From Sphingomonas arenae (GTDB taxonomy: Bacteria > Pseudomonadota > Alphaproteobacteria > Sphingomonadales > Sphingomonadaceae), in the NCBI RefSeq assembly GCF_016924655.1, contig NZ_JAFFJU010000001.1, positions 992,001-1,056,000 on the forward strand: a stretch of DNA of 64,000 bases. The letters are read 5' to 3'. The translations under genes were made by a program, and so were the position numbers. Below the pieces are notes generated by a model, which saw nothing but the letters and a program-made list of their open reading frames with translations, searched no databases and had not been told where the DNA came from. Each line of letters starts with the position of its first letter. Position 1 is the stretch's first letter. Shown piece by piece: positions 37,972 through 48,978 of this stretch.

Positions 37972-38972
37972 AGCCCGCCAAGGGCCAGATCGGCAGTGCC
38001 GTCGATCGGCCGGACCCATCGATCCGTTTTTACCTGTTCCATGGCCCCGACGAAGCCGGATCCCGCGCCCTCGCCGCGCGTCTGCTGAGCGCTTTAGGGG
38101 CAGAAAAGGTGTCGATAGCAGCGGGAACGCTGAAGTCGGATCCGGCGGTGCTGGCAGACGAAGCGGGCGCGATCTCGCTTTTCGGCGGCAAGCGCCTGCT
38201 GTGGATCGAGCCGGCCGGAAACGAGGTTGTCGCGGCCGTCGAGGCCCTGTTGGCCGCTCCAGCAACCGAGAGCGCCGCCGTCGCCATCGCCGGGGCGCTC
38301 GCCAAAACCTCCGCCCTCCTGAAGCTCGGCGAGGCCCATCCGGCTGTCCTGGCGCATGCGTCCTATGTGCCCGAGGGTCGCGACGCCGACCGGATGGTGA
38401 TGGAGATCGCCCGCCGGGAGGGATTGCGGCTTCGCCCCACTACCGCGTCCCGGATCGCCGCGGCGGCGGGCAACGACCAGGCCATTGCAGCGCAGGAAAT
38501 CGCCAAATTTGCGCTGTTCCTGGGTGCGTCGGCCGAGAACCCGAAAGACCTGGAAGAGGAGGTCGTCGACCTGCTGGGAGCGGACTCCTCGGAAAGCCAG
38601 GTCGGGCGCCCCGGAGACACGGCGTTGAGCGGAGACGTCCAGCGGCTGGCGGAGGAGCTCGAGCGAATGGCCGGCAGCGGAATCGAGCCGATCCCAGCCG
38701 TTCGCGCGCTGCAGCGCAGGTTGCTGCAGCTGGCCCCACTGCGCGCGCGGATGGAAGCCGGGCAGGCTCCCGACGCCGTCATGACGTCATTGTTCTGGCG
38801 CGATAAGCCCTTGTTCCAGAAGCTCTTGTCTCGCTGGTCGAGCGAGCGGATCGCGGTTGCGCTGGATCGGGTTGGCCGGCTCGAACGACAGCTGATGCTG
38901 AATCCGGTGCCGGACAGCGCCGCGTTCGGCGAAGAACTGATACAGATCGCCCGAGCAGCAAACGCCCGCTAG
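37968..38972 (+). CDS. holA: DNA polymerase III subunit delta
   Basis: A 334-residue clamp-loader subunit that opens the beta clamp. The N-terminal FYLFHGPDEAGSRALAARL replaces the P-loop region of related AAA+ subunits, then SLFGGKRLLWIE, and the C-terminal collar domain (ALQRRLLQLAPLRARME). Start GTG 37968, overlapping lptE. The stop TAG shares a CTAG with the stop of the convergent parB. Confidence 0.94.
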   Translation: MKPAKGQIGSAVDRPDPSIRFYLFHGPDEAGSRALAARLLSALGAEKVSIAAGTLKSDPAVLADEAGAISLFGGKRLLWIEPAGNEVVAAVEALLAAPATESAAVAIAGALAKTSALLKLGEAHPAVLAHASYVPEGRDADRMVMEIARREGLRLRPTTASRIAAAAGNDQAIAAQEIAKFALFLGASAENPKDLEEEVVDLLGADSSESQVGRPGDTALSGDVQRLAEELERMAGSGIEPIPAVRALQRRLLQLAPLRARMEAGQAPDAVMTSLFWRDKPLFQKLLSRWSSERIAVALDRVGRLERQLMLNPVPDSAAFGEELIQIARAANAR

Positions 38973-39856
38973 ATCGGCTCTCCGGACAGCCGCTGACAGA
39001 TGAGATCGAGCTGATCCAGGCTGGAGAAATGCAGGGTCACTGTGCCGTGCCCGCCCGAGTGCGCGACCTTCACCTTGAGACCGAGGAGGTCGCCCAGCTG
39101 GCGTTCGAGCGCCAGGATGTCGGCGTTGCCCTCCCCTGCGTCACGGCGGGTGGTGCTTCGGCCGCCCTCGGGACCCGGCGCGGGCTTCGCCTGCCGGGCG
39201 AGCTGCTCCGTCTGACGAACCGAGAGACCTTGGGAGATCACCTGCTGAGCGAGAGCGACGGGATCCGCCGCGGAGGCGATCGCACGCGCATGCCCCATGG
39301 ACAGCTCGCCGCGAACGAGCGCCTCGCGGACCGTGGCGGGAAGATCGAGCAATCGCAGCAGGTTGGCGACGTGGCTCCGCGACTTGTGGACCAGCTTGGC
39401 CACCGCGTCCTGACTGTGCCCAAAGGTGCCGATCAGCGCCCGGTAACCCTCGGCTTCCTCAAGCGCGTTGAGATCCTCACGCTGGATGTTCTCGATCAGG
39501 GCAATCTCGGCGGTCGCCGCCTCGTCGAAGTCGCGGACGATCGCCGGAATCTTGTGCAATCGGGCCTGCTGCGCCGCGCGCCAGCGCCGCTCACCCGCAA
39601 CGATCTCGTAGCCTTGCCCCGTATCTCGGACGAGGATCGGCTGGAGCACGCCGCGCTGAGCGATCGAGTCGGCAAGCTCCCTGATGGCGTCTTCCGCGAA
39701 GTGCCGGCGCGGCTGCTTGGGGTTGGGGCGGATGGCCGCAACGTCGATCTCCCGCACCCGGTCATTTGCGGCCGGCGCAGGCGCGTCGACTGCCGGGACA
39801 TCGCCTAGGAGAGCGGAAAGGCCTCGGCCGAGGCCGCGAGCACGCGCGTCGCTCAT
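38969..39856 (-). CDS. parB: chromosome partitioning protein ParB
   Basis: A 295-residue ParB/Spo0J CTPase that loads on parS sites and spreads. The N-terminal ParB motif region has IRPNPKQPRRHFAE, GVLQPILVR and the CTP-binding GERRWRAAQ, followed by ENIQREDLN; the helix-turn-helix is near residues 150-185 (GHSQDAVAKLVHKSRSHVANLLRLL). The C-terminal dimerisation domain ends the chain. It overlaps parA by 4 bases. Two matching sites for it lie at 41211 and 42959. Confidence 0.97.
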   Translation of the reverse strand: MSDARARGLGRGLSALLGDVPAVDAPAPAANDRVREIDVAAIRPNPKQPRRHFAEDAIRELADSIAQRGVLQPILVRDTGQGYEIVAGERRWRAAQQARLHKIPAIVRDFDEAATAEIALIENIQREDLNALEEAEGYRALIGTFGHSQDAVAKLVHKSRSHVANLLRLLDLPATVREALVRGELSMGHARAIASAADPVALAQQVISQGLSVRQTEQLARQAKPAPGPEGGRSTTRRDAGEGNADILALERQLGDLLGLKVKVAHSGGHGTVTLHFSSLDQLDLICQRLSGEPI

Positions 39857-40635
39857 GCTGCCTCCGCACGGCGTGGAAGCCGACCCATCAGCTCACGCGC
39901 AAGGCCCACGTAAGCCTCGCTACCCGAACAGCGCAGATCGTAGATGAGGGCGGGAAGACCGTGGCTTGGCGCTTCGGACAGACGAACGTTTCGCGGGACC
40001 ACCGTGTCGAACACCGTCGACCCAAGGCAGGCGCGCACGTCTTCCGCGACCTGCTTGGACAAGCTGTTCCGCCGATCGTACATGGTGAGCGCGATACCCA
40101 GGATCGCAAGGTCGGGATTGAACCGTGTGCGGATCCGCTCAACAGTCTGCAACAGCTGGCTAAGTCCTTCTAAAGCAAAGAATTCGCATTGCAGGGGCAC
40201 TAGCAAGTGCCGGGCCGCGACCAGCGCGTTCACCGTCAGCAGCCCGAGCGACGGAGGGCAATCCATCAGGCAGATGTCCCAGCGGCCCGGCGAGGCACGA
40301 TCAAAGGCGTCGGCGAGCCGGTGAGTGCGTCGGTCGAACTCCACCAGCTCGACCTCTGCGCCGGAGAGATCCTGTGTCGCCGGCAGGAGATCAAGGCGCG
40401 GAACCCGGGTCGCCACGGCCGCGTCTGCGACCTCTGCCTCCCCAATCAGCACGTCATAGCTGGACCGCTCACGCGCGGCCTGCCCAACACCGAGCCCGGT
40501 TGAAGCATTTCCCTGGGGATCCAGGTCAGCGAGCAGGACCTTCCAGCCGGTCGCCGCTAATGCCGTGGCGAGATTGATTGCGGTCGTGGTCTTCCCCACC
40601 CCGCCCTTCTGATTAGCGACCGCAACGCGGATCAT
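39853..40635 (-). CDS. parA: chromosome partitioning ATPase ParA
   Basis: A 260-residue ParA/Soj ATPase. The deviant Walker A KGGVGKTTTAINLA is at residues 10-23, with DLDPQGNAS (A') and LMDCPPSLGLL (Walker B region). With ParB-parS it moves the replicated origin. The ATG at 40635 overlaps the rsmG stop; the stop overlaps the parB start. Confidence 0.97.
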   Translation of the reverse strand: MIRVAVANQKGGVGKTTTAINLATALAATGWKVLLADLDPQGNASTGLGVGQAARERSSYDVLIGEAEVADAAVATRVPRLDLLPATQDLSGAEVELVEFDRRTHRLADAFDRASPGRWDICLMDCPPSLGLLTVNALVAARHLLVPLQCEFFALEGLSQLLQTVERIRTRFNPDLAILGIALTMYDRRNSLSKQVAEDVRACLGSTVFDTVVPRNVRLSEAPSHGLPALIYDLRCSGSEAYVGLARELMGRLPRRAEAA

Positions 40636-41261
40636 GCCCTACCCCTCGTCCTGCCTCGCGGCGCGACGCCCTCGGCCAAGACAATCATCGCGTCCTCCGC
40701 CGTGATGCTTGGCTCAAGCCCGAAGTGACCTTGCCAGCTTGCCTCTGCCTCCGCCAGTTCTTTCGCGCCGCTTCGCCCCCTGGGCAGGATCCACCGTGTT
40801 CCAGAATGCGCCAGATGTCTGCCGATCGTGAATAGATCAGCAACGGACGCCACAGCGCGTGCGGAGATCACATCGAACTCGCCGGTCAGCTTTTCGGCCC
40901 GGCCTTCGAAGACGGTCACGTTCCGCAAGCCGAGCTCTTCGGTGCAGCGGTGCAGAAATGCCGCCCTTAAGCGACGAGGTTCGACGAGCGTAACCGGCCG
41001 TGAAGTCAGGATTGAGACAACCATCCCAGGCAGTCCCGCCCCTGAACCGACGTCCAACCAGTTTGAATATTCAACCGGCGCGAGTGGAAGCAGCTGAGCA
41101 CTGTCGACAATGTGTCTCTGCCAGGCGCCAGCCGCCGTGCTCCTTGCAATTAGGTTCTGCCGCTGAGTTTCGTCGAGCAGAAGGGCGAGGTAGCTGTGCA
41201 ATCTCCCGAGTGTTTCACGTGGAACATCGAACGGCAGCACTGCAGGTGAAATCTCGTTCAT
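40632..41261 (-). CDS. rsmG: 16S rRNA (guanine-N7)-methyltransferase RsmG
   Basis: A 209-residue GidB/RsmG enzyme that methylates G527 of 16S r[32 protein letters not shown] lies at the N terminus (key stretch [13 protein letters not shown]), then the SAM motif [13 protein letters not shown] and the domain's [11 protein letters not shown]. The ATG at 41261 overlaps the mnmG stop (ATGA). A parS-like site is embedded in its codons for the VPRET region. Confidence 0.95.
41211..41226. promoter_or_regulatory. parS-like ParB binding site 1
   Basis: TGTTTCACGTGGAACA matches the consensus parS TGTTTCACGTGAAACA at 15 of 16 positions. It lies inside the 5' part of rsmG and about 1.4 kb upstream of parB. 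It is the exact reverse complement of the site at 42959-42974. Confidence 0.9.
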
Positions 41262-42958: not shown

Positions 42959-42974
42959 TGTTCCACGTGAAACA
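42959..42974. promoter_or_regulatory. parS-like ParB binding site 2
   Basis: TGTTCCACGTGAAACA, 15 of 16 matches to the parS consensus, lies in the short gap between the mnmE stop and the mnmG start. It is the reverse complement of site 1, about 1.75 kb away. Confidence 0.92.
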
Positions 42975-46577: not shown

Positions 46578-47054
46578 CTAGAACGGCTTAACGATCACCA
46601 GCACCACGATGATCGCGGTGGCGATGCCCGGGATCTCGTTCATGATCCTGAGAGTGCGGTTCTCGAGCGGGCGGGCACCGTTAGCCAATTTACGGCCGTA
46701 AGCGCCCATCCAGCCCTGGTAGCCGGTCAACGCGACGACGAGCGCGAGCTTCGCCGTGAACCAGCCCTGGCCCCAGGCACCGAGGTGGAACGCCAGCGCC
46801 AAACCCAGCAGCCAGACGATGATCATCGCCGGCGTGAGGATGATCGAACGAGTCCGGGCCTCCCGCTCGATCCACGCCCGGTCCTCGGCGGACCCAGGGG
46901 TGGTCGCATGATGGTAGACGTAGAACCGGGGCAGGAGAAACAGCCCGGCGACCCAGAAGATCACGAAGGTGACGTGCGCCGCCTTGACCCAGGGATAGGC
47001 CGCGCCGAGCCAGCCCAGCGCTCCAAAGGTGAGCAAATGTCCAAGATCAGCCAT
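46578..47054 (-). CDS. hemJ: protoporphyrinogen oxidase HemJ
   Basis: A 158-residue membrane protein with four predicted helices. The conserved histidine in AAHVTFVIFWVAGLF and the lysine/arginine positions in LALVVALTGYQGWM...YGRKLANG fit the HemJ family, which oxidises protoporphyrinogen IX in most alphaproteobacteria lacking HemG or HemY. It overlaps hemE by 8 bases and links the last steps of heme synthesis to it. Confidence 0.9.
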   Translation of the reverse strand: MADLGHLLTFGALGWLGAAYPWVKAAHVTFVIFWVAGLFLLPRFYVYHHATTPGSAEDRAWIEREARTRSIILTPAMIIVWLLGLALAFHLGAWGQGWFTAKLALVVALTGYQGWMGAYGRKLANGARPLENRTLRIMNEIPGIATAIIVVLVIVKPF

Positions 47055-48099
47055 TCGCCTTCCCTAGCAGGCGGAACAGGGCTTCGACATGGGGGATCGG
47101 CGTCGTCTGCTGGATGCCATGACCGAGATTGAAGACATGGGGGCGGTCCCGGAAAGCGTCAAGGATGCGCCGAACCGCACTCTCCAGGGCTTGCCCGCCT
47201 GCGATCAGCGCGAACGGATCGAGATTGCCCTGGACCGGGAGTTCCGGCGGGAGCTCGCGGTGGGCCCAGGCGGGATCGACCGTCTCGTCCAGACCGAGAG
47301 CGTCCACGCCCGTTTCGCGGGCGTAAGCAGCGAGCTTGCCGCCAGCCCCCTTGGGAAAGCCGATGATCGGCAGCCCGGGACGCAGTGAGCGAAGTCGCTC
47401 CACGATGCGAGCGTTCGGCCCGATCACCCAGCGTTCGAACTCGGCCGGCGCGAGGCTCCCCGACCAGCTGTCGAAGAGCTGCACGGCATCGACGCCGGCG
47501 CCCGCCTGTCCGACCAGATAGCCGACCGTGATCTCCTCGAGCGCGGCGATCAGCGCGGCGAACCGGTCAGGATCCGTGTAGGCGAGTTGCCGGGTCTCCG
47601 CCTGCTCACGGCTGCCCTGCCCGGCAACCATGTAGGTCGCAACGGTCCAGGGCGAGCCTGCAAAGCCGAGGAAGGTCACCTCAGGGGCGAGTTGCGCCCG
47701 AACCTGCCGAACGGTCTCGTAGATCGGCTCGAGGCGCTCAGGGCGCGGCGTAAGGCCTTCCAGGGGCGCATCGGCGAGCGGAGGCGACAGGCGCGGGCCT
47801 TCTCCGGCGGCAAAGGCGAGGTCCTGTCCGAGCGCATAAGGAGTGATCAGGATGTCCGAGAAGAGGATCGCTCCGTCCAGCGGGAAGCGGCGGAGCGGCT
47901 GCAGCGTGATCTCGGCCGCGGAAGGCGGGTCATAGACCAGGTCAAGGAAACCGCCCTTCTCCGCCCGCAGCGCGCGATACTCGGGGAGGTAACGGCCTGC
48001 CTGCCGCATCATCCAAACCGGCGGAGGGTCGCGCCGCTCGCCCCGGAGCACGGCCAGCAGGGGCTTATCGGCGGTCTGATCGGGAAGGGGTGCGACCAC
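47047..48099 (-). CDS. hemE: uroporphyrinogen decarboxylase
   Basis: A 350-residue cytosolic enzyme making coproporphyrinogen III. PPVWMMRQAGRYLPEYR at the N terminus, FSDILITPYALG, GFAGSPWTVATYM, and GHGIQQTTPI at the C terminus are signatures. Start GTG at 48099 with AGGAGAG upstream. It is the gene bordering the origin in Caulobacter and Rickettsia. Confidence 0.98.
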   Translation of the reverse strand: MVAPLPDQTADKPLLAVLRGERRDPPPVWMMRQAGRYLPEYRALRAEKGGFLDLVYDPPSAAEITLQPLRRFPLDGAILFSDILITPYALGQDLAFAAGEGPRLSPPLADAPLEGLTPRPERLEPIYETVRQVRAQLAPEVTFLGFAGSPWTVATYMVAGQGSREQAETRQLAYTDPDRFAALIAALEEITVGYLVGQAGAGVDAVQLFDSWSGSLAPAEFERWVIGPNARIVERLRSLRPGLPIIGFPKGAGGKLAAYARETGVDALGLDETVDPAWAHRELPPELPVQGNLDPFALIAGGQALESAVRRILDAFRDRPHVFNLGHGIQQTTPIPHVEALFRLLGKANG

Positions 48100-48393
48100 C
48101 CTTCTCTCCTCTCTCTTATTATAGATTCTTGAATTGATGATGTTTGTAGGCGGACGGGACGTGGGGAATAGGGCTGCGTCCCGGATTTGCCAACAGCCAC
48201 GCGGCTGGCGTTCTCCTAGGAAGTATGGCGAGTCGCGAGCGGACTCTCCCGGGATTCACAGGCTGGGGATGAGATTGGTCTCCCGTGGATGAATCGCGGG
48301 ACGGGGACGATGCGGCCGCTTGGCGGCGTCGGCGGTTGGCCGATCCACCGCTCCGCGCTAGGTCGTGTCACGGGCTTTTCCACAGGAACGAAC
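48100..48393. other. candidate chromosomal replication origin (oriC)
   Basis: The 294-base gap between divergent hemE and maf. It holds an AT-rich stretch at 48113-48148 (TTATTATAG, TTGAATTGATGATGTTTG), unusual for this GC-rich window, and a cluster of DnaA-box-like 9-mers: TTTTCCACA at 48376-48384 (one mismatch to TTATCCACA), CGTGGATGA at 48284-48292, TGGGGATGA at 48264-48272 and CGATCCACC at 48341-48349 (two mismatches each). hemE next to oriC is the known arrangement in Caulobacter crescentus and Rickettsia. parAB and parS lie 5-9 kb away, and genes on both sides point away from the gap. Confidence 0.7.
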
Positions 48394-48978
48394 ATGGACC
48401 TACTGCTGGCTTCGACCAGCCCGATCCGAGCCGCACTGCTGACGAGCGCTGGCGTGCCGTTTCGCGCGGTTCCTCCCCACGTGGATGAAGCACACTTGAA
48501 GGAGGGACACGAGGGAACCGACGAGCAACTCGCGGCTGATCTCGCCAGCGCCAAGGCGAGAGCCGTCAGCAGCGTGCATGGCGAGGCATGGGTGGTCGGC
48601 AGTGACAGCCTGGTGTCCGTGGAAGGCCGCCGCTTCAGCAAACCCGCGAGCCGGGAGGAAGCCGCGGAGCACCTTCGGTTCTTCTCCGGGCGAACGATGA
48701 TCCTCACTTCGGCCGTCAGCCTGGCTCGGAGTGGTGTGGTGAACTGGACGGCGGCGCAGCAGGCGCGGCTGGCCGTCCGACCGCTCAGTGACAGCTTCAT
48801 CGCGGCCTATCTCGACTTGGACTGGCCCGAAGTCTCCTACTGCGTCGGTGTGTTCAGGCTTGAAGGCCCGGGCGTGCAGCTGTTCGAGCGGATCGAAGGA
48901 GATCATTTCACCATTCTTGGGATCCCGCTCCTTCCCCTGCTGGGCGCGCTGCGCGAGTGCGGCGTCTTGGCGGCATGA
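48394..48978 (+). CDS. maf: Maf family nucleotide pyrophosphatase
   Basis: A 194-residue Maf/HAM1-like protein that hydrolyses non-canonical or modified nucleoside triphosphates. The N-terminal LLLASTSPIRAALL, VVGSDSLVS, and SGRTMILTSAV segments match. I chose the ATG at 48394 with AGGAA just upstream; a longer frame from 48289 would run through the putative origin. It overlaps aroE by 4 bases. Its position beside hemE parallels Rickettsia. Confidence 0.92.
   Translation: MDLLLASTSPIRAALLTSAGVPFRAVPPHVDEAHLKEGHEGTDEQLAADLASAKARAVSSVHGEAWVVGSDSLVSVEGRRFSKPASREEAAEHLRFFSGRTMILTSAVSLARSGVVNWTAAQQARLAVRPLSDSFIAAYLDLDWPEVSYCVGVFRLEGPGVQLFERIEGDHFTILGIPLLPLLGALRECGVLAA

Follow-up and report, generated by a model that had tools for sequence, protein, structure and literature searches.

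The chromosomal origins of Caulobacter and Rickettsia are described as flanked by hemE and by DUF299/COG1806, with maf following after the latter (an excerpt of PMC1914354), while for Sphingopyxis granuli TFA, and in DoriC for most Sphingomonadaceae, oriC is predicted to lie beside hemE, with several conserved putative DnaA boxes and a possible unwinding element described for the former (an excerpt of PMC4741004). An earlier note on the DNA analysed here had proposed a probable oriC between hemE and maf and had appealed to the first two of these bacteria; the hemE side of that comparison is right, and the far flank has to be corrected, as it is DUF299/COG1806 in both and maf comes only after it. 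The proposal itself is supported by the DnaA boxes, by parS and a dif-like site, by the strand on which dnaA lies and by a symmetry axis of gene rearrangements falling at or close to the gap or its antipode, and we regard the 294-bp hemE–maf gap (48100..48393, no strand assigned) as very probably the chromosomal oriC of a sphingomonad-type bacterium, at which replication would start. Its location is already in print for the Sphingomonadaceae and Caulobacter, and what we describe would be an origin of the usual sort, apart from some uncommon details.

The window, by which we mean the whole 64,000-nucleotide stretch of DNA that was analysed (G000:C1:992001-1056000), belongs to a genome of 2.756 Mb in five contigs, its named relatives being Sphingomonas, Sphingomicrobium and other Sphingomonadales. 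The gap is intergenic, directly upstream of hemE (47047..48099, minus strand; TIGR01464, 375 bits against a cut-off of 302.95) and bordered on the other side by maf (48394..48978, plus strand; TIGR00172, 118.5 bits against 117.15), which confirms both its coordinates and the divergence of transcription on its two sides. The hemE side carries parB (38969..39856, minus strand; TIGR00180, 190.7 bits against 58.45), an adjoining gene for a parA-like ATPase (39853..40635, minus strand), rsmG, rho, hemJ and hemE, and the other side maf, aroE, coaE and dnaQ. It should be noted that hemE, maf, coaE, dnaQ, rsmG, rho and the domain of ParB passed the NCBIfam cut-offs, that aroE, hemJ and ParA (best match ParA family) are named from best matches below these curated cut-offs, and that gidA and mnmE, which lie between parA and rho, were named by eye from the open reading frames.

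An AT-rich stretch at 48113..48149 is the probable unwinding element. The earlier note had drawn it one base shorter (48113-48148), and its existence is confirmed: at 75% AT, the 36-mer starting at 48114 is the richest of the window and of the 874 kb scanned in 42 stretches of the own genome (window included), none of the other 41 having one as AT-rich, while by 20-mers one other stretch ties with the gap. The DnaA boxes include GGATTCACA (48252..48260, plus strand), TCATCCCCA (48264..48272, minus strand, containing TCCCCA) and TCATCCACG (48284..48292, minus strand), each with two mismatches to the reference TTATNCACA, as well as TTTTCCACA directly before maf (48376..48384, plus strand), which is an exact TTWTCCACA. 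All were found where the earlier note had seen them, and its judgement that they are individually weak also holds: a single box in the gap comes within one mismatch, which puts the gap in the lowest class together with 12 other gaps of the genus (n = 30). To these we add a degenerate inverted box, TATTCCCCA (48162..48170, minus strand; two mismatches to TTWTCCACA). The DnaA-box score of the gap is the highest found in the window and is matched by 8 of 17,270 overlapping 294-bp windows of the own genome. Exact TTWTCCACA occurs nine times in the own genome and does not cluster at the gap (the reversed control gave 11), so exact boxes alone would have missed the origin. Five GANTC sites lie in the gap, one in a conserved block GCGAGTCGC (48228..48236, no strand assigned) and the others at 48124, 48242, 48253 and 48291, compared with a mean of 0.43 per 294 bp, and at least five are found in 0.08% of the windows of the own genome. 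AT richness, box score and GANTC count are each unusual and jointly single out the gap. We also observed that a site about 9.7 kb into another stretch (L053, on contig C2 of the own genome) ties with the gap in DnaA-box score, and this is possibly a DnaA-binding or titration site.

As the boxes are weak in the own species alone, it is the relatives that decide. We found hemE in 117 of 120 genomes and took 30 loci of the genus, own included, for comparison of the gap; the order hemE, gap, maf was retained in all 30. In a second set of 80 named loci from the order the gap adjoins DUF299 in 75, maf in three, and neither could be found in two, which were dropped to leave 78 gaps (three of these are from the genus and at least one locus, L074, is the same record as the fetched locus L031, so that the two sets overlap slightly). 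The intergenic position directly upstream of hemE, between divergent genes, is thus common to 30/30 genus and 78/80 named loci. Counting boxes with no more than one mismatch, there are 61 in the 30 genus gaps and 211 in the 78 named gaps, against means of 2.6 and 9.8 in 100 dinucleotide shuffles (maxima of 8 and 22); since the sequences are related, the shuffles test composition and not independent origin. Features common to both alignments are the AT-rich block, in the same position beside hemE, triplets having a G in every third position, a block GGGG..TA, the ATYCACAG motif, TCCAC boxes in inverted orientation and, last of all, TTTTCCACAG. In the genus alignment ATYCACAG is conserved at 48252 and GTGGA at 48284, and TCCACA of the maf-side box is conserved at both genus and order level. 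GANTC is enriched about threefold over the shuffles (170 compared with 52 in the genus gaps, 355 compared with 119 in the named gaps), and this enrichment, between 48124 and 48295 and in the relatives, suggests an origin whose control depends on GANTC methylation.

A run of triplets marked by a G in every third position (TTG ATG ATG T TTG TAG G; 48134..48150, plus strand) lies 11 nt from the degenerate inverted box, at the position expected of DnaA-trios, of which it resembles a deviant form. The pattern occurs in 17/30 genus gaps and 29/78 named gaps (shuffle means of 0.1 and 0.42) and on the other strand in none of either set; that an extra base may or may not stand between triplets speaks against their being a reading frame. 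In 26 of the 46 gaps with triplets an inverted box lies at a distance of 2–3 or 11 nt, and in the remaining 20 there is no such box up to 40 nt away. The published trio rule, (.A.) repeated three or more times no further than 16 bp from a DnaA box, gave no match in the window and no clear excess elsewhere (on the expected strand 3/30 genus gaps and 16/78 named gaps, compared with 4 and 12 for the opposite strand). As the central-A rule does not describe these triplets, we have not filed the gap as the published basal unwinding system. DnaA-trios without a central adenine are nevertheless suspected to exist, according to an excerpt of PMC8287927, and the triplets offer a concrete candidate that could be tested in vitro. 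Our reading, which we hold tentatively and are rather inclined to doubt, is that in sphingomonad origins they may be a working deviant trio (G at every third base, A/T in the middle) placed 2–3 or 11 nt from an inverted box and within the hemE leader, the origin being opened by an altered single-strand code tied to hemE transcription. Nothing specific on DnaA-trios in Caulobacter or the Alphaproteobacteria was found among the literature matches listed.

Promoter-like blocks face both ways out of the gap. Toward hemE (48165..48193, minus strand) TTGGCA (48188-48193) is followed after 17 bp by TATTCC (48165-48170), and GTTGGCAA with a TA-rich hexamer 16–17 bp further on is present in 30/30 genus gaps and 25/78 named gaps. 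The strongly conserved TTTGCCAACAG block in the alignment (48186..48196, plus strand) overlaps this, with TTGCCAAC in 30/30 genus and 25/78 named gaps (shuffle means of 0.08 and 0.49), and we read it as the -35 element of a promoter for hemE, although another factor could also account for it. The block toward maf, TTGGCC ... GCTAGG (48336..48362, plus strand), is conserved in the genus alignment and not in the order-level one. Both blocks would act as promoters, and one for hemE inside the origin would send its transcript across the unwinding region, placing this region in the hemE leader. The Cori of Caulobacter has a strong promoter toward hemE; among the literature matches listed we found nothing specific on the hemE promoter.

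These blocks are also the ground for reading the gap as only a divergent hemE/maf promoter region, with DnaA and CcrM-type methylation acting as regulators of transcription and the origin elsewhere, and DnaA does have a described role as a transcription factor in Caulobacter. We consider this very unlikely, because the AT-rich block and the triplet pattern exceed what a promoter needs, parS sites are near, and in 22/22 closed relatives a dif-like site lies opposite and the strand of dnaA follows the side on which it is placed. The dif-like site, a putative XerCD target, occurs once per genome in 23/23 genomes (reversed control, 0), and in all 22 closed genomes of the genus it is separated from the gap by 0.439–0.497 of the circle (median 0.482), though the length of the circle is known only to 0.1 Mb in 18 of these. 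In the own genome it is on a different contig from the gap, and the distances come from the 22 closed relatives. A first pattern, based on E. coli, matched 5/22 and was adapted to those five to give 23/23, which makes the later count dependent on the earlier one; where the sites lie played no part in choosing the pattern. The distance between dnaA and the gap is 0.28–0.48 of the circle, with dnaA to one side in eight closed genomes and to the other in 14, and whichever side it is on, its strand is in 22/22 the leading one for a fork coming from the gap.

Reading the gap as the origin is further supported by the strands of rearranged genes, which should be kept on the same side of the axis and flipped on opposite sides. 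In four closed relatives, each sampled at 20 stretches, there are 189 reciprocal best pairs, of which 156 fit an axis through the gap, against about 53% for an axis a quarter circle away. Counted in blocks the fit is 75% of 52 (P 0.021); for the 39 multi-gene blocks it is 77% (P 0.008), and for the 40 blocks remote from the gap 78% (P 0.048), all these P values being rough because pairs share genomes. A point against the gap is that the axis fitting best over all blocks falls 2–3% of the circle toward hemE; with multi-gene blocks it runs from there up to the gap, and with blocks remote from the gap it is at 2–5%. As an axis of this kind crosses origin and terminus alike, it is the dif-like and parS sites that distinguish the two ends.

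Sites matching parS are found at 41211..41226 and 42959..42974 (pattern search, no strand assigned), which together with parB and the parA-like gene (38969-40635) agrees with the earlier report of parAB and two parS nearby, and at up to two mismatches these are the only ones in the whole own genome. A degenerate pattern gave 26 sites in 18/22 closed genomes of the genus, all 5.1–8.1 kb to the hemE side, and no match in the other four. With parS 5–7 kb from the gap here, and chromosome-scale tests that cannot resolve 10 kb, the origin might be thought to lie a few kb off, in the parS or gidA–parB neighbourhood, the gap merely being nearby; the AT peak and the top box score of the window both fall within the gap, however, and the boxes are conserved in the relatives across the gap, which is the part that was aligned, so that we consider such a displacement highly improbable.

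GC skew had been suggested as a check and is weak, in that it does not place the origin. Both raw skew and skew at third codon positions with correction for gene strand were computed, for samples of stretches from four closed relatives as well as from the own genome. On the own contig it is negative from 20 to 700 kb, mostly positive from 720 to 950 kb and near zero beyond the gap; the strand-corrected signal has the right sign in three of the four relatives and the wrong one in G019, and the best place for the pooled data is at -320 kb, in a broad hump where the gap ranks 18th of 131. GC skew is also described as insufficient for several other alphaproteobacteria (an excerpt of PMC1914354). 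We note that where GC skew does not fix an origin, parS, the dnaA strand and one dif-like site can do so together, and that they place it here in a genus having many closed genomes.

The own dnaA is on contig C1 near 183.4 kb (L234, minus strand), some 857 kb from the gap, and reads with the fork. In many bacteria oriC lies beside dnaA, and an origin next to this gene, on the same contig as the gap, was the example that the earlier note had given of a case refuting its proposal. This is exceedingly improbable, as dnaA is nearer the dif-like site (0.03–0.24 of the circle, i.e. in the terminus-proximal half) than the gap in 22/22 closed genomes and so does not mark the origin, there is one near-consensus box in 5 kb of sequence around the own dnaA, and dnaA is described as not conserved close to ori in the Sphingomonadales (an excerpt of PMC8116508). 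In four closed relatives from other families (G076, G085, G101 and G108) dnaA is about 140–440 kb from hemE, as obtained by subtraction. One of these, G085, is numbered from the place of the origin, with hemE at the end of the contig and DUF299 at base 72.

The place of the origin, its conservation, the positions of parS and the dif-like sites and the symmetry of the chromosome come from computation; the protein–DNA steps by which the gap would work, like the promoter, are drawn from the general biology of DnaA origins. DnaA would bind the boxes between 48252 and 48384 and the degenerate inverted box at 48162 and extend along one strand of the triplets at 48134-48150, the AT-rich stretch at 48113-48149 would be opened and the helicase loaded there, and two forks would depart from the gap to converge near dif, across the chromosome. 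The hemE-directed promoter would fire within the origin, its transcript traversing the unwinding region, and ParB on the two parS sites 5–7 kb to the hemE side may help separate the copied origins.

The far flank is where the genus departs from its relatives. The DUF299/PF03618 gene had no match in the own genome or in 71/71 genomes of the genus, and a match in 46/49 others, and with DUF299 missing maf becomes the direct neighbour of the origin. The own genome is also without a PPDK_N domain, so regulator and enzyme seem to have been lost together; such a joint loss is likely, the absence of the enzyme having been seen in the own genome. No report of the genus-wide absence was found among the matches listed for the literature on DUF299 loss and Sphingomicrobium origins, and these matches contained nothing specific on either subject.

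The gap was also compared with a Caulobacter-type Cori under CtrA control, an assignment that the features looked for do not support. The CtrA consensus TTAA-N7-TTAA is not present in the window and occurs in 1/108 gaps, with the half site TTAACC in 4/108; the IHF consensus occurs neither in the window nor in any of 108 gaps (a strict consensus, with which a weaker site would be missed); and the DUF299/COG1806 flank is missing. Compared with Cori of Caulobacter crescentus as described in excerpts of PMC1914354 and PMC6399470, both origins have hemE as a neighbour, an AT-rich stretch, DnaA boxes and parS nearby, about 8 kb away in Caulobacter, whereas here there is no DUF299 neighbour and dnaA is far off. 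The basal unwinding system of box, spacer and DnaA-trios, as set out in part of PMC8287927, is similar in that an inverted box is followed here by AT-rich DNA, and differs in that the triplets keep a G and not a central A. Among the hemE-type origins of the Sphingomonadales, with which we place it, the gap has the cluster of DnaA boxes (weak in the window alone), the putative AT-rich unwinding element and the opposite terminus (22/22 closed relatives), and it shares with the oriC of Sphingopyxis granuli TFA, so far as this is described in PMC4741004, the same intergenic place on the hemE side, the boxes, the putative unwinding element and the gene neighbourhood, differing from it and from most other Sphingomonadaceae in that DUF299 is missing in the genus studied here.
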